Shown piece by piece: positions 25,122 to 50,076 of a stretch of DNA of 64,000 nt. The notes beneath the pieces were generated by a model. It did no database searches, had not been told where the DNA came from, and saw only the letters and a program-made list of their open reading frames with translations. Where the stretch lies: the NCBI GenBank assembly GCA_021832305.1, contig JAKBLB010000004.1, positions 59,675 through 123,674 on the forward strand, given 5' to 3'. The position numbers were made by a program, and so were the translations under genes. The stretch's first letter is position 1. Each line of letters opens with the position of its first letter. This DNA comes from Pseudomonadota bacterium. Its GTDB lineage: Bacteria; Pseudomonadota; Gammaproteobacteria; Burkholderiales; Ferrovaceae.

Positions 25122-25589
25122 CTAGGGAAGAGGCGCCTTCTTTTTGGCAAAGAAATCCTGAAGGGACTGGTAATCCCGTTCAAGAGAAAACTGCCCTTTA
25201 TGAAAAACGAATTGCAGGCGCTTGCCTGCTGCATCCAGTCCGGTCAATCCGATGGAACGGCCGGAATAATCGCGATACACGTGGATATCCTTGAGTAGTT
25301 CGAGGCTCGTCCCGTTTTTCAGGTGGACGCGCACGCAGGGCGCCTGGGGATCGGCTTCCAGTCGAACAGGCGCCGTGGGAAGGTACAGCAGACGAGTCTT
25401 CAGCACCCGATTGGCCCCTGCAAACAGGAAAAAACAGGCCATGAACAGGAGCAGATAGGCAAGATTCGGGTTCGACGCGTACCAAGCATTGGCGGCAAAG
25501 GCACTCAGAGCAGAAACCGTGGGAACATAAAGCAACAGATCCCAAGTCATGCCTCGGGGATCTTTTTTCAATTCATAGGAGCGCAACAT
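25122..25589 (-). CDS. Hypothetical two-TM membrane protein
   Basis: MLRSYELKKDPRGMTWDLLLY start; two TM then soluble C-terminal domain. Confidence 0.65.
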   Translation of the reverse strand: MLRSYELKKDPRGMTWDLLLYVPTVSALSAFAANAWYASNPNLAYLLLFMACFFLFAGANRVLKTRLLYLPTAPVRLEADPQAPCVRVHLKNGTSLELLKDIHVYRDYSGRSIGLTGLDAAGKRLQFVFHKGQFSLERDYQSLQDFFAKKKAPLP

Positions 25590-25629
25590 AGGGATCTCAG
25601 GGGGGCTGACAAATGGGTCGGCAGACTCT

Positions 25630-26142
25630 TTACGGGAGGGAAGCCTGATGAGGGGCGGGTAGAACGGCTCGAATGGCTGCATCCATTTCCTGGTAAAGCA
25701 TGGGGCCCGCCTGTTGATACCGGACGATTCCATGCGTATCGATCACAAAGGTCCAGGGATCGCCCATCACGCGATAGGTTTTGAATGCTTCGGGGTTTTC
25801 ATACTGGTCCATGTGCAGAAACAGGACATTGGGCTGATATTTGTCAAGCATGGCCTTGGTGATTTGCAGTTGCCGATCGCAGACGGAACAATGACCGGGG
25901 GTGGCAAATTCGAGCAGGATGGGTTTTCCCGTGGCCAACGCCTGATCCAGCGAATACTGGTACATGCGCGGGTCAGGCTGGCGATAGGTGGTCATGCGAC
26001 TGAGGTCTCCGCCGACATCGGCCAAGGTCTTGGTGGCCAGTCGAGGGGCCTGGGTCCCCAGGGCCAGCCCAAGGTCCTGCCGATTGCAGCCCCCCAGGGC
26101 GACGACCAGGACGATCAGGGAATACCTCAATTTGGATTTCAT
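25630..26142 (-). CDS. Thioredoxin-fold lipoprotein
   Basis: Lipobox LGGC; KPILLEFATPGHCSVCDRQ with CxxC. Confidence 0.8.
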   Translation of the reverse strand: MKSKLRYSLIVLVVALGGCNRQDLGLALGTQAPRLATKTLADVGGDLSRMTTYRQPDPRMYQYSLDQALATGKPILLEFATPGHCSVCDRQLQITKAMLDKYQPNVLFLHMDQYENPEAFKTYRVMGDPWTFVIDTHGIVRYQQAGPMLYQEMDAAIRAVLPAPHQASLP

Positions 26143-26148
26143 GGGAGG

Positions 26149-26658
26149 TCAGGCTCCTTGCTTGCCAGTCTTGAAGATATTATAGCCCCAGATAATGTTG
26201 GCCAGCAGAACCAACGTTCCGAAGAAGCCCACCCCACCCATCAGATGGGTGACGGTTTTTTCTATTTCCGGACCGGGGTCATAGCCTCCAATGCTGCCTG
26301 CAATGGAGAACAGGACCACCATGCCCATCAGACCGATGTTGTGCATCCAGAAATGGATCTTGACCAGTTTGAGGCTGTAAATCGGGCGATTGACCAGGCG
26401 CGGGACAAAGTAGTAGATGGCGCCGAAAATGGCCATTTCCACCCAGCCAAGCAAATTGATATGCCCGTGCGCCAGCAGGATGAGGTGACCGTGGGGGGCC
26501 GAATCCACGAACATGCGAAAGGCGGGAATTCCCCCCATCAGAGCCCCCCAGGAAAAACCGATGATGGCGTAGGTAATACAGGCATACACGAATAACAGGG
26601 TGAAGGTCGTGTATTCCGGGTCATCGATGCGTTGGTCAAAAGAGGCGGGTGAAGACAT
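26149..26658 (-). CDS. Mini heme-copper oxidase subunit I-like protein (stand-alone C-terminal helices)
   Basis: 169 aa; AHGHINLLGWVEMAIFGAIYYFVPRLVNRPIYSLKLVKIHFW aligns with CcoN helix X region encoded at 37083-38489. Confidence 0.75.
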   Translation of the reverse strand: MSSPASFDQRIDDPEYTTFTLLFVYACITYAIIGFSWGALMGGIPAFRMFVDSAPHGHLILLAHGHINLLGWVEMAIFGAIYYFVPRLVNRPIYSLKLVKIHFWMHNIGLMGMVVLFSIAGSIGGYDPGPEIEKTVTHLMGGVGFFGTLVLLANIIWGYNIFKTGKQGA

Positions 26659-26660
26659 GC

Positions 26661-27239
26661 TCAGGGTTTCTCCTTCTGATTTTGACCTGCATCCTCGCGC
26701 AGATCGTGATATTCGGTTTTCCAGGAACTGGGGGCCCAGACCTTGACCATTTCATCCACGAATCCGGAGCGTTCCGGCATGGGCAGACGGGCATCCGCAG
26801 ATCCTTGCGTGGCTTTCAACTCTGACAGAAACACGGCGATGGAATGGATTTCGTTAGCCGGCAAGGCGGCCACATAGGCTGCTGCCTTGTTCAGACCGTG
26901 GTCGACGGTTTTAGTTTCATAGGTGGACTCGGGTTTTTTCAGGAATGATTCGATGTAGTCCAGGGTATGTCGAGAGCCGATACCGTCCAGGCCAACGCCG
27001 TGATTGGTCCCGTTACGCACGGCTCGATGGCAGTCAGTACAGCCCCTTTCACGAAACAGACGGGAACCTACCTTCCCTTCCGCAGTGAAGTCAAACTGGG
27101 TGGTATTGGGGTACATGGGGTGGTTGAGGTGAGAACGGTAGATTTCCAGCATCACAAAACTGGACACGGCAAAAACGACCAGCAGTCCAAAGATGCCGAA
27201 CAATATCTTTTCGCCCAGTTTCAAGGAGTTGAATTTCAT
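26661..27239 (-). CDS. Membrane-anchored monoheme cytochrome c, NorC-like
   Basis: N-terminal TM anchor, CTDCH, GSRHTLDYIESFLKKPES. Confidence 0.82.
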   Translation of the reverse strand: MKFNSLKLGEKILFGIFGLLVVFAVSSFVMLEIYRSHLNHPMYPNTTQFDFTAEGKVGSRLFRERGCTDCHRAVRNGTNHGVGLDGIGSRHTLDYIESFLKKPESTYETKTVDHGLNKAAAYVAALPANEIHSIAVFLSELKATQGSADARLPMPERSGFVDEMVKVWAPSSWKTEYHDLREDAGQNQKEKP

Positions 27240-27334: not shown

Positions 27335-28075
27335 TTACCGGGTAGTATTCGGGACGCGTGAGTTCCCTTCCGTGGTGCGAGGGGCCGTGGCCAGATAGGT
27401 TGCGGCGTCGAGAATATCCTCGTCGCTCAACTTCTTGGCAATGGCACGCATCATGCCGTAAGGATCATTGGTGCGGCTCTCATCCCGCCAGTTGTGCAAC
27501 TGGTTGACCAGATAAGTGAACTTTTGTTCCCCGATGACCGGGAAAACTGGAGCTGCACCGCGACCGTTGTACCCATGGCAAGACATGCAGGCCGAAACCT
27601 TGCCGCTGACGCCGTATTTGACCAGGATTTCACCCTTGTAACGGGTTCCGATGGGTTGGCCCCCATCCTTGATGGCCTGCATATCCGACAATTCCTTGGG
27701 GTCAAGAGGAAGAGAATTGACATAAGCCGAAACATCCCGCCGATCCTGGGGGGTGAGTTGCTGTGCAAACAAAGGCATGACTGCCCCTGCCCCCGATGGG
27801 GTTCTCCGGCCTTCGGCCAGGTCCGTCAATTGTTTGACGATATAAGGAAAACCGAGATTGTTGAGACGGGGTGCCCCCATGGCTTCCGTTCCCCATCCTG
27901 TGGCTCCATGGCAGGTCATGCACGCCGGAGCGGCGCCTTTCCCTTCCGTGAAGATCTTTTTGCCGTTGGCCGGGTCGCCGTTCATGACCCCTTCTTCTTC
28001 AGCCAGAGCCGTCATGCTCACCAGAGCCGCGGCCACAGCCAGCCCGGATGTGATCTTAGTGAATGACTTACGCAT
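27335..28075 (-). CDS. Diheme cytochrome c4-like protein
   Basis: Signal peptide; CMTCH and CMSCH. Confidence 0.9.
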   Translation of the reverse strand: MRKSFTKITSGLAVAAALVSMTALAEEEGVMNGDPANGKKIFTEGKGAAPACMTCHGATGWGTEAMGAPRLNNLGFPYIVKQLTDLAEGRRTPSGAGAVMPLFAQQLTPQDRRDVSAYVNSLPLDPKELSDMQAIKDGGQPIGTRYKGEILVKYGVSGKVSACMSCHGYNGRGAAPVFPVIGEQKFTYLVNQLHNWRDESRTNDPYGMMRAIAKKLSDEDILDAATYLATAPRTTEGNSRVPNTTR

Positions 28076-37082: not shown

Positions 37083-38489
37083 ATGTTCAAGTACCTATTT
37101 GCGCGTAGCGAGGATATTCCGGAGGGATCGGCAGCGGTTTACTTCGGTTTCTCCGCGATTACTTGGTTTGTGATTGGAACCGGGTTGGGTGCCTTCAATG
37201 CATCCAAGTTGGCATTTCCTGATTTTGTCACGGGTCTCGAGTTCGTTTCTTTCGGTCACATGCGTCAGGTGCACGTTCACGCCGTGATTTTCGGCTGGAT
37301 TTCCATGGCGTTTGCCATGGCCATGATGTACGTGACCCCGGCCTTGGGTAACACCAAGTTGTGGTCGGAAAAGTTGGGCATCTGGAATGCGTTTCTCTGG
37401 AATGTCGGGCTGTCGCTGGGACTGACGCTGTTGTGGTCCGGGATGACCTCGGGGCGGGAATATTCCGACTTCCCCTGGTTCATCGATCTGTACATTGCGA
37501 CCTTCATGACCATTCCTTTGGGCATCAATGTCTGGATGACCGTCATTCACCGCAAGACGCAGGGGATCTACACCACCAACTGGTTCTTTGCTTCTGCCGT
37601 GTTCATGGTCAGCATCGTGTTTATCGTGGGTAACCTGCCCGAGTGGTTCCATCTGACCGGGTTGACTGAAGCCTACCTGACCTGGTGGTTTGCGCACAAT
37701 GTGCTGGGTCTGTGGATTACTCCGGTTGCAGCGGCCATTGCCTACTACACCATTCCCAAGGTGACCGGCAATCCGCTCTATTCACACCGGATCGGCCACC
37801 TGCACTTCTGGTCTGTGGTCGTGTTCTATTCCACCCCTGCTGCCCACCACCTGATGTCCGCTCCCCTGCCTGAATGGCTCAAGTCCTTCGCTTCGGTGGA
37901 AGGGGTGTTGATTCTGGTGCCAGCCGTTGCCTTCGTGTCCAACATTCTGTTGACCATGCAAGGGAAATGGAACATGTTCGTGGAAAACCTGGAAATCCGC
38001 TTCACGGTGACCGGCTGTCTGATGGCCATCCCGCTGAACATGCAAGGGGGCTTCCAGCAAACCCGTGCCATCAACTGGTACATTCACGGGACGGGCTGGA
38101 TCGTGGCCCACGCCCACTTGGCTCTCCTGGGTTTCTCGACCTTCCTGGAAGCTGCTGCGGTCTACCTGGGTTTGCAAACCCTCATGAAGCGTAAACTGTA
38201 CTCTCTGACTTTGGGGAATCTGCATTTCTGGTTCCTGCTGATCGGATTCACCACCTACTGGGTGTCCATGACCATTGCCGGATTGATTCAAGGGGCCGGA
38301 AAGATCTACGAAGTCCCGTACATCGACGTGGTGATGGCGGAGCATCCCTACATGATTGCCCGCTGGATCGGTGGTTCCCTGGTATTTACCGGAAACTGCT
38401 TCTGGCTCTACAACATGTGGATGACCGCACGCGCCGGGACCGTGATTCCAGAGGGACGCATGGCCCACGAACTGGCCTACGAACGTTAA
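37083..38489 (+). CDS. ccoN: cbb3-type (C-family) heme-copper oxidase subunit I
   Basis: VHVHAVIFGW; WWFAHNVLGLW...FWSVVVFYSTPAAHHL (Cu-His with Tyr 6 before HH); AHAHLALLGF. Confidence 0.9.
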   Translation: MFKYLFARSEDIPEGSAAVYFGFSAITWFVIGTGLGAFNASKLAFPDFVTGLEFVSFGHMRQVHVHAVIFGWISMAFAMAMMYVTPALGNTKLWSEKLGIWNAFLWNVGLSLGLTLLWSGMTSGREYSDFPWFIDLYIATFMTIPLGINVWMTVIHRKTQGIYTTNWFFASAVFMVSIVFIVGNLPEWFHLTGLTEAYLTWWFAHNVLGLWITPVAAAIAYYTIPKVTGNPLYSHRIGHLHFWSVVVFYSTPAAHHLMSAPLPEWLKSFASVEGVLILVPAVAFVSNILLTMQGKWNMFVENLEIRFTVTGCLMAIPLNMQGGFQQTRAINWYIHGTGWIVAHAHLALLGFSTFLEAAAVYLGLQTLMKRKLYSLTLGNLHFWFLLIGFTTYWVSMTIAGLIQGAGKIYEVPYIDVVMAEHPYMIARWIGGSLVFTGNCFWLYNMWMTARAGTVIPEGRMAHELAYER

Positions 38490-38525: not shown

Positions 38526-39482
38526 ATGGTCAATTTTAGAGAGTACAAGATCGGAGCCCGGTTTTTCGGTCTTGCCCTGGGTGGATCGATGACGATCACC
38601 CTGTTTATGCCCAGTTTCGACTTGCGCAATGTAAATGCCACAGAGGTGGCTCTGGACAAGCAGCTTTGGGCCGGTCACGAGTCGGGGTTCAGTCTGGCCG
38701 ATCCCTTCCTGACGGGAGAGCATCGTCCGGTACGGGTGACCTTGAAAACGGATCCGAAAACGGGTCAACCCATGGCATCCACGGTCGCCTATGTTTATCC
38801 GGCGGGGACACCTCTTCCCAATGGCGTGGACCACCCCGATAACCTCGGAAATATCGTGGAGCAATTGAGTCGGGACAAAGGTCGGATCGGTGAAGCCAAC
38901 AAGTCTCAAGGTGCGGTCTTTCTGCTCAGTTCCGAACCTCAGGGCGATGGCTCCAAGCAGTTTTATATTGAAAATGCTTCGGCCACCAAAGGCTGGAATC
39001 CTGAAGAGGTCATGAAAGCAGCTGGGGATGAAAATACCTACCATGCTTCTTATGGAAAGTCCATTTTCGTGCGTGAAGGCTGCTGGTGGTGTCACACCCT
39101 CTTGCCGGAAGAAACCCAGGATTGGCAAGTGTTTGGTGCGCCGCCCATGTTGGGTGACTTCAATGGAGAATCCCCCACTGCCTTTGGTTCTGACCGCAAG
39201 GCGCCGGATATTCTTCATGTGGGATCGCGCAATTCATCGCGCGAATGGATGATGTTGCACTTCTTCAATCCGCGTCTGGTGCAACCGCATTCCATCATGC
39301 CCCGTTTTGACTATCTTTGGGGACCGGTCGACGACAAGGGTCAGAAGATCGATTTCGACAAGTGGCGCGCAGAGTATAACGAGTATGTGGATGGAAAGCG
39401 GGTTACTCCGCCTGAAGTTCCCATGTATGCCAGCAATTCTGATGCCCGCGCGTTGATCGACTTCGTTTTGTCGCTCAAGTAA
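38526..39482 (+). CDS. ccoO: cbb3-type oxidase monoheme subunit CcoO-like
   Basis: VREGCWWCHTL; GSDRKAPDILHVGSRNSSREWMMLHFFNPRLVQPHSIMPRF. Confidence 0.87.
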   Translation: MVNFREYKIGARFFGLALGGSMTITLFMPSFDLRNVNATEVALDKQLWAGHESGFSLADPFLTGEHRPVRVTLKTDPKTGQPMASTVAYVYPAGTPLPNGVDHPDNLGNIVEQLSRDKGRIGEANKSQGAVFLLSSEPQGDGSKQFYIENASATKGWNPEEVMKAAGDENTYHASYGKSIFVREGCWWCHTLLPEETQDWQVFGAPPMLGDFNGESPTAFGSDRKAPDILHVGSRNSSREWMMLHFFNPRLVQPHSIMPRFDYLWGPVDDKGQKIDFDKWRAEYNEYVDGKRVTPPEVPMYASNSDARALIDFVLSLK

Positions 39483-39553: not shown

Positions 39554-40174
39554 ATGAGTAATTGGTCCTTTGATTCGCCCCTGCGCACCCTTTCTGATGA
39601 AGAAAAGGTCCGTAATGATGAAAAATTGTGGGAAAACGACAATCTGGGTGGGGTACACGAAGACAACAACCCGGTTCCTGCGCCCGTGGTATGGTTGGTC
39701 GGTTTGACGGTGATCACGGCATTTGCCATTACCTTCCCGCTCTGGGGTCAACGTCCAACGGCGGCTTTGTATGAATCCTACGTCAATTCCATGGACAAGC
39801 CTGAAGTGCTGGCCGCCAAGGACGACAAGGAAGCCATGGCTAAAATCGTGGAAATGAACAAAGGGACGCCGAATGATGCCTTGCTGGAACGGCATCCCTT
39901 GACCATGGACGATCTGCGCATGATTGCTCCGCAAATCAAGGCGCTGGAGGCCAAGGGCGCGCACATGCATGATTTCGAAGTGGTGGGAGATCAAGTGGTT
40001 ACGGCAAACTTTGAAGGCAACTATCGTCCTGATGGCACCCGCATCCGCCAGCAACCCTGGTGGGACAAGGGATACACCATTGATATTTTCTATCTGAGTT
40101 ACTTCTTTTTATCCGTATTTACCATGATCAAGCGGCTGCCCCCCACCACGTGGCAACCCAAGCATGATCACTGA
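39554..40174 (+). CDS. Heme-free CcoP-like N-terminal membrane protein
   Basis: LGGVHEDNNPVPAPVVWLVGLTVITAFAITFPLWG resembles CcoP N-terminus; no Cys in the sequence, so no CxxCH. Confidence 0.6.
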   Translation: MSNWSFDSPLRTLSDEEKVRNDEKLWENDNLGGVHEDNNPVPAPVVWLVGLTVITAFAITFPLWGQRPTAALYESYVNSMDKPEVLAAKDDKEAMAKIVEMNKGTPNDALLERHPLTMDDLRMIAPQIKALEAKGAHMHDFEVVGDQVVTANFEGNYRPDGTRIRQQPWWDKGYTIDIFYLSYFFLSVFTMIKRLPPTTWQPKHDH

Positions 40175-40200
40175 GCACCCTACATCAAGGAGATGAGATC

Positions 40201-40311
40201 ATGATTGATCTGGATTACGGCCCTTTGGCCATTGCTCTGCCCATCAGTATCGCCTTTATCTGCCCGTTTCTCTATAGTTTCTTTGTGGATAACTTCGACA
40301 AAAAGAAATAA
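40201..40311 (+). CDS. 36-aa single-TM micro-protein
   Basis: MIDLDYGPLAIALPISIAFICPFLYSFFVDNFDKKK; upstream AAGGAGATGAG; below the ORF-track cutoff. Confidence 0.65.
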   Translation: MIDLDYGPLAIALPISIAFICPFLYSFFVDNFDKKK

Positions 40312-40357
40312 TGCGTTTTGGTGGCAAGATGAAACCATAACCATTTAAATGACTCGC

Positions 40358-40390
40358 AGTGCCATACCTGACGGTATGGCACTTTTTTTT
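40358..40390 (+). terminator. Intrinsic terminator (AGTGCCATACC-TGAC-GGTATGGCACT + T run)
   Basis: 11 bp perfect stem followed by an 8-T run. Confidence 0.9.
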
Positions 40391-40412
40391 GACCCCATTC
40401 GAACTTTATCTC

Positions 40413-40694
40413 ATGATCACTGAAATCTCGCATCTCGTGGCCGCAACGACTTCCGGAAAAATCGATATGAGTATCGAAGGAATGAGGAGTCAGCGTTTCA
40501 GCGTCTATATTTTTGTTTTTCTGCTGATCGGTATCGCAGTTTTTTCTGGAATCATCTATTCCCTGCTCAAAGGGCAATATGCCCCCACCAAGATGCGTAT
40601 CGGGGAACGCTTGATGTTCATCGCCATCATCCTGGGCGTGGTGGCGGCCACGGGGTTCGGTGCTACCCAACTATTGACCGGTTATCTGTTTTGA
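40413..40694 (+). CDS. Small two-TM membrane protein
   Basis: MITEISHLVAATTSGK...; ORF-track start 40359 lies inside the terminator, so ATG 40413 or later is more likely. Confidence 0.55.
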   Translation: MITEISHLVAATTSGKIDMSIEGMRSQRFSVYIFVFLLIGIAVFSGIIYSLLKGQYAPTKMRIGERLMFIAIILGVVAATGFGATQLLTGYLF

Positions 40695-40727
40695 GGGCGT
40701 TTTGATGTGATTGGGTATTTTGAACCT

Positions 40728-40757
40728 TTGCAGGAATGACAACTCCAATTCCTGCAA
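40728..40757. promoter_or_regulatory. Operator-like dyad TTGCAGGAAT-N10-ATTCCTGCAA
   Basis: Perfect 10 bp inverted repeat with 10 bp spacer, just upstream of TAGAAT (40766) and the next gene; no T tract. Confidence 0.5.
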
Positions 40758-40799
40758 GAGAGTGTTAGAATAACGGCAACCTTCATACAGGAGTCTGGC

Positions 40800-41081
40800 A
40801 TGGGCAATTACCTCGATACATTACCCGATGGGTGGACCATCTACCTGTGGCTCATCGCTGGAGGACTTATCATTGCCGTGAGTATTTACGGGATACGCTG
40901 GGGTTCCAAAAACGAGCAGTTCGATGAGGATATCAAGTATCTGGTATTCAAGGAAAGCGACAAGGACAAGATGAGTCCGGAAGAATATGCCAAAAGTCGC
41001 GAAGTTCTGGCTAAACAGGTAGCCCGGAGAGCGGAGGTGTTGGCAGAACAAGCGGCGGCCAGGACAACCAAGACGACATGA
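40800..41081 (+). CDS. Single-TM protein, CcoS/CcoQ-like
   Basis: YGIRWGSKNEQFDEDIKYLVFKESD after an N-terminal TM. Confidence 0.6.
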   Translation: MGNYLDTLPDGWTIYLWLIAGGLIIAVSIYGIRWGSKNEQFDEDIKYLVFKESDKDKMSPEEYAKSREVLAKQVARRAEVLAEQAAARTTKTT

Positions 41082-41572
41082 AACGAGGTGAATGGGTCGT
41101 GCTGGGCCTCATTGGGGCGCTGGCGATGGCGGGTATTGCGCAAAATCTTATCCATCACGAAAAGGGTGATCAGAACGGTGATCGTGGTTTGCCTTTTTAT
41201 ACGACGGCCACCCCCGAATTGGCGCGGGAAGGGTCTGATCTGATCCGTCAGAATGACTGTCGTCAATGCCATTCGCTTTGGTCAGTGCGTAATATCATGC
41301 AGTCGGTTCCCTCCCCTTCACTGGATGGAATGGGGGATTTGCGGAGCGAGGCATGGCTTTACCAGTATCTGTCGTCCCCCAATCCTCAGACTATTTTACC
41401 CAGTCGTCTCAAGCCTGAATATCGAATGCCTTCATTTGCCTCGCTCCCCGAGCAGGAAAGAAGAACGCTGGCCCATTATCTGGCCAGTCTGCATGTCAAG
41501 GATTGGTATCTGGATGAAACCAAAAAGAGCGAATATGAAAAACTCACGGGGAAGGATGACTACAAAAAATGA
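41078..41572 (+). CDS. Monoheme cytochrome c, membrane-anchored or secreted
   Basis: N-terminal hydrophobic segment; CRQCHSLW; ATGA overlap. Confidence 0.87.
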   Translation: MKRGEWVVLGLIGALAMAGIAQNLIHHEKGDQNGDRGLPFYTTATPELAREGSDLIRQNDCRQCHSLWSVRNIMQSVPSPSLDGMGDLRSEAWLYQYLSSPNPQTILPSRLKPEYRMPSFASLPEQERRTLAHYLASLHVKDWYLDETKKSEYEKLTGKDDYKK

Positions 41573-42072
41573 CAGAAGTAGTCCCACAGGAAAAAGACAC
41601 GGGTAAGTGGGGGAGGGCGCTGATTGGATTGGGCGTCGCTACCGCCATCAATCACTTTGGGGATCGGCTGCTGGGCGTCACCATCGAGATCTTTACCAAT
41701 GCGCTGGATTATTTTTCTTTTCGCTGGATGCTGGATGTTTTTCTCGTTCCCTTGATTGCAAATTTTTTTCTGGCTCTGATTTTTGGCAAGGGAAGTAAGT
41801 GGCTCTGTTATGCCACACCCTTGATTGTCCGGGGTATCAGTTATTTCAACGTGGCCGAAATTTCCGGGATACCCGAGTATGGTCACCTGATTCCCCTGGG
41901 ATGGTGGGGGTTTTTTATCATCCTGGCCATGGAGACGGGCATGGTAGGGGCCGTGATCGGGGAATCCGTGATCAAACGCTACTATGGGCGCAAGACCATC
42001 GAGGGGATCTATCAAGAGCGTTTGGCACGGGAAGAACGTCAACGTCAACGCGCGCAAAAAAACAGGGAGTAA
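41569..42072 (+). CDS. Multi-TM hypothetical membrane protein
   Basis: Hydrophobic segments, basic C-terminal tail; ATGA overlap with cytochrome c. Confidence 0.7.
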   Translation: MTEVVPQEKDTGKWGRALIGLGVATAINHFGDRLLGVTIEIFTNALDYFSFRWMLDVFLVPLIANFFLALIFGKGSKWLCYATPLIVRGISYFNVAEISGIPEYGHLIPLGWWGFFIILAMETGMVGAVIGESVIKRYYGRKTIEGIYQERLAREERQRQRAQKNRE

Positions 42073-42075
42073 ACG

Positions 42076-43134
42076 GTGGCACTTTCCCCCAAACTGCCGT
42101 CCACGCCGGAAGAACGGCTCAAACGCAAAAAGATCCTGTCAGCCACACTGGTGACGTGTATCGGCATCGTCATGATTGGCAGTTCGCTCCATGTCATCAA
42201 ACTGGGACAAGGGCGCATGGAGGATATGCGCAATCTGGTGTCCTATAACATCAAGGATTCAGACAACCATATTCGCGCAGCGGGTGAGGATATTCAACTT
42301 CATGAACAGCACGAGGGCGGACAAGTCAAGGGTGGCTACACGGTGGAGGAAACTGATCGCTTGTTGTCACGCGAGCAATGGGAAAACCTGAACACGATGG
42401 TGACCATTCCTGCAGGCCCCTTTCAGATGGGAACCAACCTCGATCGTGCCGATCCTCCCGATAAGCCGGAACATAAGGTGTATCTTCCGGCTTACGCCAT
42501 CGATAAATATCCCGTCACCAACGCACAATATGCCCGCTTCGTGGCGGCTACTGGACACCGTCCTCCGCTCAACTGGAAAGATGGGAGGATTCCGCAGGGG
42601 GCGCTGTTGCTCCCGGTCACCCTGGTGACGTGGTATGACGCCAAAGCCTATGCCCAATGGGCACATAAGCGCTTGCCCACGGAAGCCGAATTTGAAAAAG
42701 CCGGGCGGGGCACAGACGCACGCCGCTGGCCCTGGGGAAACATCATGGACCCGACCAAATTGAATACGTATTACAACCGGAATTCGTCTTCACCCGTGAC
42801 TGATTATCCCCAAGGAGCCAGTTCCTACGGTGTTTTTGATTTATCGGGCAACGTGGATGAGTGGACCGACAGTGATTTTACGCCTTACCCTGGGTCCATT
42901 GCTCCCACCATCGTGTTTCAAGGCAAGGTGGCGGTTCAGGAATCTTCCCAGGATCGCAATCTGGGGATTTCCGATCAAAAACTGATCAAACGCAGTTACA
43001 AGGTGCTGCGGGGCGGATCCTGGAAAAGCGATCCCTTCTCCACTTCCCTTTTTCATCGCGACAATGCTTTTGCCAACATGACTTCCGACTTTTATGGGTT
43101 TCGCTGTGCCAGTTCCCTTCCTTCCTCTCGTTGA
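42076..43134 (+). CDS. FGE/SUMF1-fold protein with N-terminal TM, lacking FGE catalytic cysteines
   Basis: VTIPAGPFQMGTN; DKYPVTNAQYARFV; LPTEAEFEKAGRG; LSGNVDEWTDS; VLRGGSWKSDPF. Confidence 0.85.
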   Translation: MALSPKLPSTPEERLKRKKILSATLVTCIGIVMIGSSLHVIKLGQGRMEDMRNLVSYNIKDSDNHIRAAGEDIQLHEQHEGGQVKGGYTVEETDRLLSREQWENLNTMVTIPAGPFQMGTNLDRADPPDKPEHKVYLPAYAIDKYPVTNAQYARFVAATGHRPPLNWKDGRIPQGALLLPVTLVTWYDAKAYAQWAHKRLPTEAEFEKAGRGTDARRWPWGNIMDPTKLNTYYNRNSSSPVTDYPQGASSYGVFDLSGNVDEWTDSDFTPYPGSIAPTIVFQGKVAVQESSQDRNLGISDQKLIKRSYKVLRGGSWKSDPFSTSLFHRDNAFANMTSDFYGFRCASSLPSSR

Positions 43135-43144
43135 GTATCGACCC

Positions 43145-43387
43145 ATGTTGCGTCAACTTCGTATCTCAGCCTTGCTGGCGCAGTGTCTATGGATTTCTGA
43201 CGCCCATGCCGTGGACAGTTATCGCTATCTGCATGTGACCGTAGATACGCCGTGGAATATTTTCCTTTTTCTACTGATTGGCATATTTGCCCCTTTCATT
43301 CTGATGGGTGTGCTGGCGTGGTATTTTTCTTTCAAAAAGAAACCGGCGCCTCCCAATCACCCGTCTGCACCAGAGGATCATCCATGA
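43145..43387 (+). CDS. Small signal-peptide plus single-TM protein
   Basis: MLRQLRISALLAQCLWISDAHA then TPWNIFLFLLIGIFAPFILMGVLAWYF. Confidence 0.6.
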   Translation: MLRQLRISALLAQCLWISDAHAVDSYRYLHVTVDTPWNIFLFLLIGIFAPFILMGVLAWYFSFKKKPAPPNHPSAPEDHP

Positions 43388-43776
43388 AACCCTTCGGTTC
43401 TCCGGGATCTCGTTGGGGATGGTCTCTTTTGACCGGGATGCTCTTCATCCTGGGGCTGGCACTCTTTGGACCTGCATTGGCTGCTCCGGTTGCTGCGCAA
43501 AACCCCAATGCCGTTCAGGTGATGGAGGCATTCCAGAAGCAGCAAGGAGACAAGGACGATGGGGTGACGCCCGTTGATGACCACAAGAAAAAAATCATCA
43601 TGTTCATCATGGGGGGGCCGCTCATTCTGATGGTTCTGGTGACAGGAGTCCTGGGCATCGGCATGGGCATCTATGGTAAACCCTGGTTTGTTCCGCACAT
43701 GATCATGGCGGGATTGACCATGACTCTGGCCCTGGTCCATGCCATCGTGGGGGTGGCCTGGTTCTTTCCCTTTTGA
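43384..43776 (+). CDS. Small membrane protein with signal peptide and two TM
   Basis: Signal-like N-terminus; two hydrophobic segments; ATGA overlap. Confidence 0.65.
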   Translation: MKPFGSPGSRWGWSLLTGMLFILGLALFGPALAAPVAAQNPNAVQVMEAFQKQQGDKDDGVTPVDDHKKKIIMFIMGGPLILMVLVTGVLGIGMGIYGKPWFVPHMIMAGLTMTLALVHAIVGVAWFFPF

Positions 43777-46394
43777 ACTCCTTCCTGATTCCGGCCCTGT
43801 ATGGTTTGTCGGGTCTGGTGGGGCTGGCCTATGAGGTGCTGTGGGTCCGCATGGTGACCCTCCAGTTTGGCCTGAGCATCTTTGGAGTGGTCATTACGGT
43901 GGCTGCATTCATGGCGGGACTGGGGTTGGGCGCACTGGCGCTGTCCAGCCGCACTTTTCGTCGTCCCCTCCGCCTGCTTGCCCTTGTTGAAGTGAGTGTG
44001 GCCCTTTTCTCGGCTCTGTTGCCCTTTCTGGCTCCCCTCGAGGAACATGCGCTCTGGGCGGGTTTTTCTCATCAAGGGACTTTGAACTGGCATTTGGGAT
44101 TGGCCCTGGTGTCTTTCCTCCTGCTGACCCTGCCCGCTGCGGCCCTGGGGGCTGGATTTCCTCTGGTCCTGTCCTTAGGTCAACAGGTATCTGGACGGTT
44201 GGGATTGCTGTACGGGGTCAATACCCTGGGTGCCGTGTTGGGCGCTTTGCTTCCCCTGATTCTGCTGCCAATGTTCGGTTGGGTCCACGCCCTGCGGGGG
44301 ATCGCAGCGTTGGGTGCGGCACTGGGGGGCGGTTGGTGGATGCTGGAGCATTTCGAGGGAATCCCTTCTCCTGTTCAGGAAGATGAATCAATCAGGCCCA
44401 CTGGAAAATCGGGAAGAACCGAATCGATGCTCCTGCTTTTTTATGGGATCCTGGGAATGGCCAGTCTTTCCCTTGAAGTGGCCTGGACTCGCCTCTTCGG
44501 TCTATTGTTCCTGCGTACCGAGTATGTCCTGGCCTTGATTCTGGCTTCCTTTCTGGTGGGAATCGGGTTGGGTAGCCTGGTGGCGACGCGATGGCAGACC
44601 ACGTTGCGCCGATTCCGCAGTGCGTTTCCATGGATGGCTGCCGGCGGCATTCTGGCAGGACTGGCCGTGTTGCCGGTCGTGGCTACCTGGGTCGAACACC
44701 CGCTGGGTCAAACGCTGACCCAGGCACTTCTGCTTCAAGGACTGATCCTGACCCTGCTCACTTTCCCGGTGACTTTTGTCCTGGGACTGTGGCTCCCTCT
44801 TCTGAGTGAAGAGCAGGGCAGTCCCCGTACCGGGGTGAAACTGTACGGCGCCAATTCTCTGGGGGGCGCTCTGGGTGCTCTGTTGACGGGCTTTGTCTGG
44901 TTACCCTGGCTGGGGACCACCGGAACCCTGGTCTGGAGCGCGTTTCTGATCCTGGGGGCCAGTTTGACCTGGACCCGTCCCTGGACGTTGGTGCAGGGGG
45001 GACTGATGGTGGGTTTTGTGGGGTTGGGTGCCGGGCTCTGGACCTTTCCGCCGACACAGAAATTGCTGCCGGAAACGCTGGCCGGTAGCCACGATATTTA
45101 TCGCTATGAAGATGCGGTAGCCATGACTCAAGTGGTTGAGCAGCCCGATGGGCAGAGAATTCTGCTCACCGACCTGCAACGGCACGATGCCTCCTCAGAT
45201 CCGACGGCGGCTTTCGTGCAACGGAATCAGGGTCGTCTGGCCCTGCTGCTGCAAGGACATCCCCAACGGGTCTTGTTTCTGGGACTGGGCACCGGACTGT
45301 CGCTGGCCGGGAGTTCGGCGTATCCCGACGTTCGACGGGAAGCCGTGGAATTATCGCAGGGGTCCATCGAAGCGGCACGTCGTTACTTTACGCCCGTGGA
45401 TGGTCCGATCCTGAGTGAAACCGAACTGATTCAGGACGATGCGCGGCATTTCATGAGTTTCACGGAAAACCATTATGACGTCATCGTGGGCGATCTCTAC
45501 CATCCTGACCTGGCTGGGGTGGGGGCTTTACTTTCCCTGGAACAGTTTGGGCGGGTGCGGGATCATTTGTCGGCCCATGGGGTATTCGTCCAATGGTTGG
45601 CCCTGAACCAATTTGATCCTGCCGCGCTCCAGGTGGAGTTGAGAACCTTTCGGCGGGTTTTTCCCGATGCGTATCTGTTTCTGGACGGCATGCATCTGGC
45701 TCTGGTGGGGTTTCGCCAATCCTGGGCAGGCTGGTCCACGGTGGAAGCGGGTCAGGAACGTCTCAGTTCGGATCAACGAGTTGAAGCCACGGGTGGTGAG
45801 GGGGTGATGACCTGGATGGGACGTTACTGGGGAAAAATTCCTGATACGCCGGGACCGGTTCAGAAGGAATGGGCCCCCGTCATCGATTTTTCCCTGCCCC
45901 GACTGAAATATACCGGCGGCGCCCTGGAGATGACGCTGGCGGCTCTGTGGCATCAAAGGCCTTCCCTGGAGCAGGCAGCGCAGGATCTGAATCTGCCCGA
46001 ATCCCGGAGTCCGGAATTTGCCGCTGCCTGGCATGCCACCCAGTATCTGGTGCAAAGTTGGCAGGATCGTATGACCGGGCGTGACGGCGAAGCCGAACGT
46101 CTGGTTCGCCTTGCGTTCGAGGCCAATCCACGGGACCGCTGGGTGGGTTATGCGCTGGCCGATGAGGTATTGGCCCAGTTGATGCGCGCGCCATTGCCTG
46201 CCGCCCAAAAAGAAGCCGTGCTGGATAAACTGGCACTCCGTTTTCCGTGGCATGTAGAGGTGCAAAGGGCCCTCTGGAAAATACAGGGGGAGCGCCATGA
46301 ATTTGCCGAAGCAGAAAAAACCCGCCTGAACCTGCTGCGCGAAGCCCCTCTTGACCGCGAAGCCGGGATAGCGAAAAATGAAAACTTTCAGTAA
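43773..46394 (+). CDS. Fused multi-TM/spermidine-synthase-like protein
   Basis: YEVLWVRMVTLQFG; VLFLGLGTGLSLAGSSAYPDVRREAVELSQG SAM-fold; TTG start overlapping previous stop. Confidence 0.82.
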   Translation: MNSFLIPALYGLSGLVGLAYEVLWVRMVTLQFGLSIFGVVITVAAFMAGLGLGALALSSRTFRRPLRLLALVEVSVALFSALLPFLAPLEEHALWAGFSHQGTLNWHLGLALVSFLLLTLPAAALGAGFPLVLSLGQQVSGRLGLLYGVNTLGAVLGALLPLILLPMFGWVHALRGIAALGAALGGGWWMLEHFEGIPSPVQEDESIRPTGKSGRTESMLLLFYGILGMASLSLEVAWTRLFGLLFLRTEYVLALILASFLVGIGLGSLVATRWQTTLRRFRSAFPWMAAGGILAGLAVLPVVATWVEHPLGQTLTQALLLQGLILTLLTFPVTFVLGLWLPLLSEEQGSPRTGVKLYGANSLGGALGALLTGFVWLPWLGTTGTLVWSAFLILGASLTWTRPWTLVQGGLMVGFVGLGAGLWTFPPTQKLLPETLAGSHDIYRYEDAVAMTQVVEQPDGQRILLTDLQRHDASSDPTAAFVQRNQGRLALLLQGHPQRVLFLGLGTGLSLAGSSAYPDVRREAVELSQGSIEAARRYFTPVDGPILSETELIQDDARHFMSFTENHYDVIVGDLYHPDLAGVGALLSLEQFGRVRDHLSAHGVFVQWLALNQFDPAALQVELRTFRRVFPDAYLFLDGMHLALVGFRQSWAGWSTVEAGQERLSSDQRVEATGGEGVMTWMGRYWGKIPDTPGPVQKEWAPVIDFSLPRLKYTGGALEMTLAALWHQRPSLEQAAQDLNLPESRSPEFAAAWHATQYLVQSWQDRMTGRDGEAERLVRLAFEANPRDRWVGYALADEVLAQLMRAPLPAAQKEAVLDKLALRFPWHVEVQRALWKIQGERHEFAEAEKTRLNLLREAPLDREAGIAKNENFQ

Positions 46395-46416
46395 ATTTCA
46401 GGGAGCGCAGAGTTAA

Positions 46417-47712
46417 ATGAATGGGGCATCGATACAGGTCTCGCGCTTTCATCTGCACCGTCGCGTGGTGCAGGGGGTCACCCTTTTGTTGGTCATTCTG
46501 GTGCCAGCCCTGGGACTGTTTCGTATCGATCCCCGTGCCGGCGCATTGGTCGTGCTGGATCGTCAGATCTGGTTCGCCGACTTCTTTTTGATCGCCGGAT
46601 TGTGGATCACCCTGCTCAGCCTTCTGGTGATGCTCTATTCCGTGGCTGGCACCGTATTTTGCGGGTGGGTGTGCCCACAGAACATATTTTCCGAATGGGC
46701 CAATTACATGACCCATCTCCTGTTGGGAAAACGGGCTGAAGTCAGCCTGGATGGTCAGGCACCGGTCATCGCCCCAGCCAAAAATCGTGTGTGGAACTGG
46801 GTGTTGCTGGGCCTTTCCTTCCTGTTGGCTTCCATGTTCCTGGGGGTGATTCCCCTGTTCTATTTTTACGACCCCTCGACGATCCTGGCTTTTCTTCTCT
46901 GGCGTTCGGATCCTGCATTGGCCAGTTCCCTGCATTGGATTTATGCGGTTTTTGTTTTGATCATTCTGGTGGATATTGCCGTGATCCGCCACTTCTGGTG
47001 CCGTTTTGCCTGCGTATACCGGGTTTGGCAGCACAGTTTCCGGACCCGTGAAACCCTTCATGTGCGTTATGACGCGAACCGCGCCAGTGCCTGCGAAAAG
47101 TGTAACTATTGCGTGACATCCTGCTTCATAGACATCGATCCACGCAAGACGGATGTCTACGACAGTTGCATCAATTGCGGCGAGTGTATCGATGCCTGCA
47201 ACCGTCTTCAGGCAAAGAAAGGGAATCCGGGGTTGCTGAGTTTTGAATTTGGCGAACGCAAAACCAAACGGGAAGCGCGTATTCACTTTCGCAACAATGC
47301 CATCGGCCTGAACTCACGCGCGGGGTGGATGACTGTCGTCATGGTCCTGGGACTGAGTTTTTTTTCCTGGGGACTGTGGACCTGGGAACCTCTTCATCTG
47401 GCAGCCTACCGGGCCGAGGTGCAAGATGCCGCGAACGATCTGGATTACCGTATCGAAATCGCCAATAAACGTTACCGTCCTGAAAGAGTGGAATTGTTGG
47501 TGCAGGGATTGAAGCCGGGAGAGTATCATTTGTCTCGGACCCAACTGACGATTCCTGCAGCAGGACGACTGTCCGCGATCCTGTCCATCTCGCCGACCCT
47601 GCCCCATGGCGTGCATTCCTTCAGAATTCTGGCTCATGCCGTTCAGGAGGACTGGAAGGACCAGTTTGCCATCCAGCATTTCTCAGAAGCCCCCAAGGGA
47701 GGAAACCCATGA
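46417..47712 (+). CDS. ccoG: Cytochrome c oxidase accessory protein CcoG/FixG
   Basis: FCGWVCPQNIFSEW; CEKCNYCVTSC; CINCGECIDAC. Confidence 0.9.
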   Translation: MNGASIQVSRFHLHRRVVQGVTLLLVILVPALGLFRIDPRAGALVVLDRQIWFADFFLIAGLWITLLSLLVMLYSVAGTVFCGWVCPQNIFSEWANYMTHLLLGKRAEVSLDGQAPVIAPAKNRVWNWVLLGLSFLLASMFLGVIPLFYFYDPSTILAFLLWRSDPALASSLHWIYAVFVLIILVDIAVIRHFWCRFACVYRVWQHSFRTRETLHVRYDANRASACEKCNYCVTSCFIDIDPRKTDVYDSCINCGECIDACNRLQAKKGNPGLLSFEFGERKTKREARIHFRNNAIGLNSRAGWMTVVMVLGLSFFSWGLWTWEPLHLAAYRAEVQDAANDLDYRIEIANKRYRPERVELLVQGLKPGEYHLSRTQLTIPAAGRLSAILSISPTLPHGVHSFRILAHAVQEDWKDQFAIQHFSEAPKGGNP

Positions 47713-48149
47713 ATCAAACCCGTGAACCCGAGCCACCCCTGAGCGAGATCCAGCCGGAATGGGGGAAAAAAGACAAAGAGCATTTTGGCTATGCATCGGA
47801 TGAAGAACGCAAGGACAAACGGGGACTGGAGGACTGGGAATTGGTAGAGAGCGTTCCTTTATCCCAGAAGCCCGTGCCTTACTGGTTTTTTGCCGTGATC
47901 TTGGTGGTTCTGCTGGTCGCGGTTGGGCTCGCCTTTCCATTTTGGGGCGTTCGCTCTGGCCACCAGAAGCACTGGCTGGACTGGGGATTTTTGTTGGCGT
48001 TGGTATACATCGCGGGCGCTGGAACCTTTGTGTACTACATGGTCCGGATGTATGGGATTGCTCATCCGGGGCGGTCAGAGACCGATGCTCAAAATTCCCT
48101 GGATTCTGCCGATCCTCAACTACATAAGACTACCGATGAAGTTCGTTGA
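47709..48149 (+). CDS. Two-TM protein resembling heme-free CcoP-like protein at 39554
   Basis: KPVPYWFFAVILVVLLVAVGLAFPFWGVR followed by second TM; no CxxCH. Confidence 0.6.
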   Translation: MNQTREPEPPLSEIQPEWGKKDKEHFGYASDEERKDKRGLEDWELVESVPLSQKPVPYWFFAVILVVLLVAVGLAFPFWGVRSGHQKHWLDWGFLLALVYIAGAGTFVYYMVRMYGIAHPGRSETDAQNSLDSADPQLHKTTDEVR

Positions 48150-48546
48150 CAAGCCCTTTTGGGGCCTCCTCGGATGGGGGCCACTGTTCTTTCTGGCCGC
48201 CTGCGGCAAAATAGAATCGACTCTGCCCGATACGACATCCCAAACCTGGAACGACTGGACCGTGCGCGTGGAATCCCGCCCCAGCCCCCCTCGGGATGGC
48301 ATGAATGAGTTTCTGGTCATGGTCACCGGTGCCCATGACCGTCCCGGTTCCCGCTGTCTGGTGGATATTCGGACGGCCCAGAATGATCCCTGGAAACAGG
48401 CCATTCAGGATGGACGGGTGGGGGTCTACCGGCGCGCTGCTCTGGTCGAACCGGGGGAACGGCGTACGGTGCAGGTTCGCCTGAACTGCGCGGACGAGGC
48501 GCAGCGGGACAGCGTTTTGTTTTTCCCGCTGCATGTTCCCGACTAG
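48136..48546 (+). CDS. Small lipoprotein, possible FixH/YtkA-like domain
   Basis: Lipobox LAAC; DWTVRVESRPSPPRDGMNEFLVMVTG; ATG at 48136; next to ccoG. Confidence 0.6.
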   Translation: MKFVDKPFWGLLGWGPLFFLAACGKIESTLPDTTSQTWNDWTVRVESRPSPPRDGMNEFLVMVTGAHDRPGSRCLVDIRTAQNDPWKQAIQDGRVGVYRRAALVEPGERRTVQVRLNCADEAQRDSVLFFPLHVPD

Positions 48547-48565: not shown

Positions 48566-49090
48566 TCAATCTTCGGCGCGGGTACTTTCCACCGGACCCA
48601 TCAAGGTCAGGACGATATTGGAGAAGTAAACCATGAACCCGACGGCCATACAGGTGCCGGCCACGGCTACGATGGGTCCGTAGAAATGGTGGGCATGAGT
48701 CATGGCCGATCGGTCATGGAGCATCAGGTACCCCTCCCAGATGCCAAAGACCATTTGGGTCGTATAGAACCCGTAGACTCCAATGAACAGCCACCAGAAA
48801 GAATGCTGAACCAGGCGCTGGGAGTAGATGCGTTTGCCGCTCAAACGCGGGAGCAGGTAATAGGTGGTGCCCATGGCCAGGGTGACCACGCCGCCCACCA
48901 GGTTCATGTGGGCATGGGCCAGGGGGTCGATCATGTGCCCCGGCCCACCGTAGGGGCTTCCAATGGAATCGAGCCAGGCCCGAATGGGGGGGAACACCTG
49001 CAACATTCCGTGCATGGCTCCGATGAAGAGAGAGGTGGCAGAAACGATAAAAAATTTGACTAAACGGCGAAGGTCTGAGAGCGAGTGCAT
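48566..49090 (-). CDS. Second mini heme-copper oxidase subunit I-like protein
   Basis: 174 aa; AHAHMNLVGGVVTLAMGTTYYLLPRLSGKRIYSQRLVQHSFW aligns with CcoN helix X region and the 26149-26658 product. Confidence 0.75.
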   Translation of the reverse strand: MHSLSDLRRLVKFFIVSATSLFIGAMHGMLQVFPPIRAWLDSIGSPYGGPGHMIDPLAHAHMNLVGGVVTLAMGTTYYLLPRLSGKRIYSQRLVQHSFWWLFIGVYGFYTTQMVFGIWEGYLMLHDRSAMTHAHHFYGPIVAVAGTCMAVGFMVYFSNIVLTLMGPVESTRAED

Positions 49091-49440: not shown

Positions 49441-50076
49441 TTAATTGGCCAGGATGGCCTGGGCATCATGGAACAACTGGTCGGGAACCTGGGGCACCTG
49501 AAAGGATGCCTGCAGGCGACCCGAGGGGTTGAACAGGAAGATCGTGCTGCTGTGATCCACCGGATAGTTTCCCCGTCCATCCTTTTCATGCTCATGAAGG
49601 ACGGCATAGATCCCTAAACTCTGGGTGAAGGGGGCGAGTTGGGCAGTTGTGGCCTGAGCCCCGATGAAAGAGGGGTCGAAGGCGGGGGTGTAACGTCCCA
49701 GAACGGACAGGGAATCGCGCCCAGGGTCCACGGAAACGAATATGACCTGAGGGGCGGTGTGACCCGCTCTTTTGAAGGATCGGGATACCGAGGCCAATAG
49801 GGCAAGGTCGGTGGGGCAGACGTCGGGACAGTGGGTATAGCCAAAGAGCAGGAAAGTCCAGTGCCCTGACAAGGACTCACGGGTCAGGGTGCCCTGGGTG
49901 GAAGGCAAGGAGAAAGGAGGCAAGGAAGGACCTTGAGCCAGCCACTGTGTTCGATCCCCAAGCCCTCGAGGAGGCGCGGGCTGGTACCAAAAGAAAAGCC
50001 CCAGGCCCCCCAGAATGAGGAGAGCCGTGCAGAACAGAAAAACGACGGATGAGGAGGATCGGGTCACCGGCCTCAT
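49441..50076 (-). CDS. SCO1/SenC family copper chaperone
   Basis: TFLLFGYTHCPDVCPTDLALL; VFVSVDPGRDS; DHSSTIFLFNPSG. Confidence 0.93.
   Translation of the reverse strand: MRPVTRSSSSVVFLFCTALLILGGLGLFFWYQPAPPRGLGDRTQWLAQGPSLPPFSLPSTQGTLTRESLSGHWTFLLFGYTHCPDVCPTDLALLASVSRSFKRAGHTAPQVIFVSVDPGRDSLSVLGRYTPAFDPSFIGAQATTAQLAPFTQSLGIYAVLHEHEKDGRGNYPVDHSSTIFLFNPSGRLQASFQVPQVPDQLFHDAQAILAN

Follow-up and report, generated by a model that had tools for sequence, protein, structure and literature searches.

Is a 169-aa protein that resembles part of subunit I of the heme-copper oxidases a remnant of a larger enzyme or a unit in its own right and, if the latter, what does it serve? The question is raised by a gene at 26149..26658 on the minus strand of the window (the whole stretch of DNA analysed here, 64,000 nucleotides), whose product we call MINI1; the reading frame, which begins with ATG and is preceded by AGAAGGAG, is present as an earlier note on this DNA had described it. 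By both sequence and fold MINI1 is homologous to heme-copper oxidase subunit I: it matches Pfam COX1 (PF00115) with 53.4 bits (E 2.5e-14), above the curated cut-off of 34.8, over profile positions 309–405 of 436 (the TM X–XI region), and its best solved relatives are the CcoN chains of cbb3 oxidases (9g83, 6xkw and 3mk7). Profile–profile alignment (HHalign) with the CcoN encoded in the window (37083–38489) gives a probability of 98.3% and an E-value of 1.9e-14, which bears out the alignment over the HxH helix made in the earlier note. The AlphaFold2 model (pLDDT 92.6, pTM 0.85), made from 21 orthologs, has four helices, all of them long (14–43, 58–88, 96–126 and 130–166), and in Foldseek it fits best on CcoN, at a TMq of 0.75–0.77 (0.77 to 3mk7_A). 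MINI1 thus has four TM helices and not the 12-TM core of three 4-TM units, and with TIGR00780, the equivalog model for cbb3 CcoN, it scores 41.9 bits against a cut-off of 583.15. In a tblastn search of plasmids with MINI1, the annotated matches among those listed were rhizobial ccoN.

We show that MINI1 is one complete 4-TM repeat, that is one third, of CcoN and of the heme-copper fold, since an HMM of the mini family and HHalign each match all three CcoN repeats. The HMM, built from 13 such stand-alone units ('minis'), finds a single domain in MINI1 and three in CcoN, at 10–126, 161–292 and 301–452 in the CcoN of locus L136 and likewise three times in that of the window; HHalign places MINI1 in the same three registers, of which that of TM IX–XII is the strongest and yields the E-value given above. 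The proposal that MINI1 is a free-standing C-terminal part of subunit I therefore holds as far as its standing alone is concerned, and fails in that it is a complete unit rather than a C-terminal remnant. Small size and a partial COX1 match could also be signs of a decaying fragment or a misassembled piece of an oxidase gene, a reading to which we give practically no chance: decay and assembly artefact are ruled out by an identity of about 55–100% across Ferrovaceae, Gallionellaceae, Zetaproteobacteria and gammaproteobacterial MAGs, by similar lengths, by invariant sites and by a conserved operon, in line with what had been argued before. Full-length orthologs, which the earlier note had named as a sign of truncation, were not seen at the MINI1 locus, the orthologs being uniformly short.

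Conserved in at least 97% of 98 distinct MINI1 sequences are H64, H66, H102, H106, E74, W37, R48, W72, N68 and N107 (H56 reaches 91%), and the only invariant histidines are H64, H66, H102 and H106. The HxH formed by H64 and H66 is kept in 98/98, so that its loss in homologs, the other sign that would have spoken against a functional protein, is not observed. In HHalign these two residues fall on the TM X heme ligands of the CcoN in the window, H343/H345, and MINI1 accordingly has the helix-X HxH that in the superfamily ligates the low-spin and the high-spin heme. The CuB/FeB site (His on TM VI and HH on TM VII) has no counterpart in MINI1, as had been noticed before: counted from the common HFW, the CuB pair H255/H256 of CcoN corresponds to L116/F117. 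Without CuB, MINI1 is unable to reduce O2 or NO in the manner of an oxidase, and we rule out either reductase activity, the CuB/FeB ligands being absent even in an oligomer. The charges of the loops (3 K/R and 0 D/E between TM2 and TM3; 0 K/R and 3 D/E between TM3 and TM4) fit a topology in which the N and C termini would lie inside and the HxH end of helix 2 near the periplasm.

The partners of MINI1 are encoded with it on the minus strand. The block opens with a diheme cytochrome c4-like protein (27335..28075; 72/80 named loci), followed by a membrane-anchored monoheme cytochrome c (26661..27239) that overlaps or abuts MINI1; immediately 3' of MINI1 lies a thioredoxin-fold lipoprotein (25630..26142; 78/80 named loci), and a conserved membrane protein, p203 (25122..25733), closes the operon, its true start probably lying further in than this ORF because the orthologs have about 150 aa. 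The anchored cytochrome c, MINI1, the lipoprotein and p203 stand together in 77–78 of the 80 named loci, and the loci without the full four-gene block include contigs ending near MINI1; the median gaps (118 loci) are -1 nt between cytochrome c and MINI1, +2 between MINI1 and the thioredoxin gene and +6 to the next. Lipobox Cys19 and the CxxC pair Cys85/Cys88 are kept in every sequence of the lipoprotein, which is what it had been taken for. The coupled monoheme cytochrome c is equally real, but its designation as NorC-like describes architecture only: the sequence gives a generic Cytochrom_C match (2.3e-6), and the only NorC among its chain matches is 4xyd_B, at E 0.32. His114, invariant and part of a DHG motif, stands in it roughly at the position of the class I Met ligand, where an invariant Met is absent. 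The cytochrome may be bis-His ligated, the alternative ligand being Met164 in the C-terminal extension, and its potential is perhaps low since His seems to replace the Met ligand. Natural fusions, either mini–mini or cytochrome c–mini, were searched for in the collected loci and none was found.

On the plus strand the window carries a divergent ('distal') cbb3-type oxidase. Its CcoN (37083..38489) keeps all heme and CuB ligands (H64, H205, H255, H256, H343 and H345) as well as Y249, and with it are encoded the monoheme subunit CcoO (FixO; 38526..39482), a set of conserved proteins (39554..43776) comprising p206, p111, p93 (weakly FixS-like), a monoheme cytochrome c (41078–41572), p167, a SUMF-like (formylglycine-generating-enzyme-like) protein (42076–43134), p97 and p174, and the rest of the cluster (43773..48546), namely an 873-aa spermidine-synthase-like membrane protein (43773–46394), a CcoG-like protein (46417–47712), p146 and p207. 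The SUMF-like and spermidine-synthase-like proteins recur in the distal cbb3 cluster as conserved components. A ccoP gene was not recognized there, and SCO (49441–50076) is a neighbour. Available excerpts of the literature distinguish proximal and distal forms of the cbb3-type oxidase (PMC7029218, PMC10734462, PMC8788666) that differ in subunit composition (PMC8788666), and name cbb3 as the oxidase predicted for Nitrotoga (PMC6050957). Going by its hosts and by the make-up of its cluster, we take the CcoN of the window to be the distal form of PMC7029218, PMC8788666 and PMC10734462.

The window also holds a second mini, which the earlier note overlooked. MINI2 (48566..49090, minus strand; 174 aa) is another stand-alone 4-TM unit, linked to MINI1 with 98.5% profile probability (HHalign), and its HxH (H59/H61) is invariant in 21 MINI2 sequences; its model is likewise four-helical (pLDDT 81.7, from seven sequences), with a confidence below that of the MINI1 model. 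The cluster (ccoN, ccoO, five small genes including that of the monoheme cytochrome c, the SUMF-like gene, p97, p174, the spermidine-synthase-like and ccoG-like genes, p146, p207 and MINI2) lies near the MINI1 block in the 80 named loci, in varying order and orientation. The MINI1 operon is in most genomes separate from the oxidase operon, which it adjoins, and this counts against MINI1 as a subunit. In the divergent genome G095 (L136:847–6672) a compact operon has the order cytochrome c, mini, 72-aa protein, ccoN, ccoO and others, with a single mini, just the one 72-aa gene between it and ccoN, and a ccoN that is 57–58% identical; possibly this is a simpler form of the cluster.

The minis and the distal cbb3 oxidase are a conserved gene set of Fe(II)- and nitrite-oxidizing lineages and of some gammaproteobacterial MAGs. 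The best 80 of 224 MINI1 loci bear the names of Ferrovum, Gallionella, Sideroxydans, Ca. Nitrotoga, Zetaproteobacteria, Chromatiaceae and Ectothiorhodospiraceae MAGs and Proteobacteria bins, the closest named among these 80 being Ferrovum MAGs and Ferrovum myxofaciens P3G; the genome of the window itself is 99.4% complete. A homolog 77% identical to MINI1 (L086) lies on a 5.5-kb contig of a Rhizobiales-labelled bin without the usual neighbours, a placement that is probably a binning error. Writing CcoN* for the CcoN of the type carried by the window, a class sample of 274 genomes has MINI1 in 24, CcoN* in 24 and MINI2 in 25; MINI1 and CcoN* coincide in 23 (23/24 MINI1 carriers), and MINI2 is present in all 24 genomes with MINI1. 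In a phylum sample of 299 genomes minis are found in 42/42 CcoN* genomes, and in 8 more, mostly incomplete, that have no long CcoN* match. Fisher's p for co-occurrence (3e-31 and 2e-43) ignores shared ancestry and overstates the case; the better argument is co-absence within the family, MINI1 and CcoN* both being missing from all five genomes of genus g6, together with joint presence in separate classes. Pairwise divergence of MINI1 correlates with that of CcoN* (0.47) and of the cytochrome c (0.68), values that cannot separate co-evolution from common descent. In sum, MINI1 shows the strict co-occurrence and linkage to be looked for in an accessory subunit of the distal cbb3 oxidase.

We suggest, with a probability of about one half, that MINI1 is a small b-type cytochrome and an accessory subunit of the distal cbb3 oxidase, relaying electrons together with its cytochrome c. 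This is the simplest reading because the HxH is predicted to lie near the periplasm, a cytochrome c is coupled to the gene and MINI1 is nearly absent apart from the distal oxidase. In CcoN structures a single 4-TM unit supplies one side of a pore; since the partner helices of a full CcoN are missing, heme b would bind between two chains, each contributing one His, whether these are copies of MINI1, MINI1 and MINI2, or MINI1 and CcoN. Electrons would pass between the anchored cytochrome c and this heme, in either direction, on the periplasmic side, and the two would act at the distal oxidase as a c-to-b relay for electrons that Fe(II) or nitrite supplies. A low-potential cytochrome c would perhaps be an odd partner in a high-potential Fe(II)/nitrite pathway, which counts against this proposal. 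It is conceivable, though doubtful, that a trimer of MINI1, or of MINI1 and MINI2, rebuilds the three-pore heme-copper core from separate chains. The HHalign register gives TM II of CcoN the first-position His, TM VI the second-position one and TM X the two together. Since every protomer of a trimer would have the two, a His of either position would line each pore (on a pore assignment that we assume from CcoN structures), enough for at most three bis-His hemes b, with copper absent. If true, such a trimer would represent the fold with its units unjoined, a form from which the 12-TM oxidases may have been built.

The main rival to the accessory-subunit proposal, because the thioredoxin-like lipoprotein, SCO and CcoG adjoin, is that the minis are assembly factors, which, while the distal oxidase is being made, would hold or deliver heme b or template the folding of a third of CcoN. 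They would act with the lipoprotein (through thiol or copper chemistry), SCO and CcoG, and be gone before the enzyme works. We consider this possible but not probable: besides the three neighbours, distant minis elsewhere also have beside them a fusion of thioredoxin with another mini-like unit, and the conserved HxH would suit a transient heme site too, but the cytochrome c coupled at a median of -1 nt is an electron-transfer partner and not a typical chaperone, and to our knowledge the canonical cbb3 assembly set ccoGHIS works without any mini.

Invariance of the HxH in 98 MINI1 and 21 MINI2 sequences, and its being common to minis of unrelated clusters, bears on another view, namely that the 4-TM unit is heme-free and packs on CcoN/CcoO in place of the helices of CcoP, CcoQ or CcoH, its histidines serving only as hydrogen-bonding residues. 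Packing alone would not require such conservation, and we hold this view to be rather unlikely, even though ccoP was not recognized in the cluster and, in the available excerpts, subunit composition differs between the cbb3 types (PMC8788666) and subunit III of the oxidase was not identified in Ferrovum JA12 (PMC4725956). Less likely again is a gas sensor, or an NO- or O2-protective heme protein, that tunes the oxidase. The neighbours of distant minis would suit such a role (norCBH, nitrite reductase and an Rrf2-type regulator in Thermus; Crp/Fnr-like regulators in Gammaproteobacteria), but signalling domains and regulators are absent from the conserved MINI1 block of the 80 named loci, where the link is with the oxidase itself. 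Of the roles offered by the earlier note (small b-heme carrier, sensor or assembly factor), a free carrier or sensor is thus far less likely than an accessory part of the distal oxidase, given MINI2, the near-absolute co-occurrence with CcoN* and the restriction to particular lineages.

In the portions of the literature available to us, only ccoN/ccoO stand behind the terminal oxidase assigned to Nitrotoga and to iron oxidizers, whether neutrophilic or acidophilic, and a characterization of the complex was not found. Judging from the genes, the distal oxidase machinery probably has heme parts that have so far gone undescribed, and because it has two invariant companions of heme-copper fold, today's models of respiration on Fe(II) and nitrite probably give its subunits and cofactors incompletely. 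Our literature search, in the parts of the sources at hand, yielded no paper in which heme-copper proteins of a single unit, or accessory or uncharacterized proteins that go with the distal cbb3 oxidase, are described, and on threefold symmetry it returned unrelated papers only. The minis can serve as genetic markers for this oxidase type; moreover, with one-third units surviving separately, the origin of 12-TM heme-copper oxidases from a 4-TM unit becomes testable.

Finally, considering known systems, MINI1 is closest to CcoN (cbb3, C-family; PF00115, TIGR00780), with which it has in common the fold unit, the HxH on the second helix of that unit and the PRxxxRPxYS and HFW signatures; it differs in having 4 TM helices instead of 12 and one third of the length, in lacking the CuB ligands and in two invariant residues peculiar to it, Glu (E74) and His (H106). 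As in NorB/NorC, a membrane protein of heme-copper fold goes together with an anchored monoheme cytochrome c; unlike NorB, MINI1 has only 4 TM helices and cannot form an FeB site (the His pair on helix 3 is missing), and its cytochrome is not clearly recognizable as NorC; membership of NorBC is unsupported by the cytochrome sequence. NorH, which we take to be the third subunit of the Thermus cNOR, is likewise a small extra membrane protein tied to a heme-copper enzyme; we reject it as a relative, as it has 99 aa and no HxH and no similarity to MINI1 was seen. Thermus does have a 126-aa mini with HxH, WP_014511218.1 (L134:4890–5267), annotated only as 'hypothetical protein' and located on Thermus thermophilus plasmids beside norCBH, nitrite reductase and an Rrf2-type regulator. 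This protein and the gammaproteobacterial minis of loci L045–L049 resemble MINI1 in their predicted 4 TM helices and HxH (27–34% identity), and differ from it in their denitrification or lipoyl/thioredoxin neighbourhoods, in shorter loops and in being unlinked to distal cbb3. At L047:8993–10643, L046:8882–9957 and L048:8654–10291 the partner of the mini is a protein in which a thioredoxin-like domain is joined to another mini-like 4-TM unit, which has a weak NnrS match, and in L047 a lipoyl GcvH-like protein lies in between. A haloarchaeal 'hypothetical protein' of 454 aa (L135:3980–5344) resembles three fused 4-TM units, with HxH in the first only. For the distal cbb3 of iron and nitrite oxidizers (Ducluzeau type), the available excerpts of PMC7029218, PMC8788666, PMC10734462 and PMC6050957 describe CcoN/CcoO and cytochromes c and do not mention minis; this is the oxidase that the minis accompany. 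Stand-alone heme-copper units thus also occur outside the window, and what is new here is their fixed partnership with a terminal oxidase.
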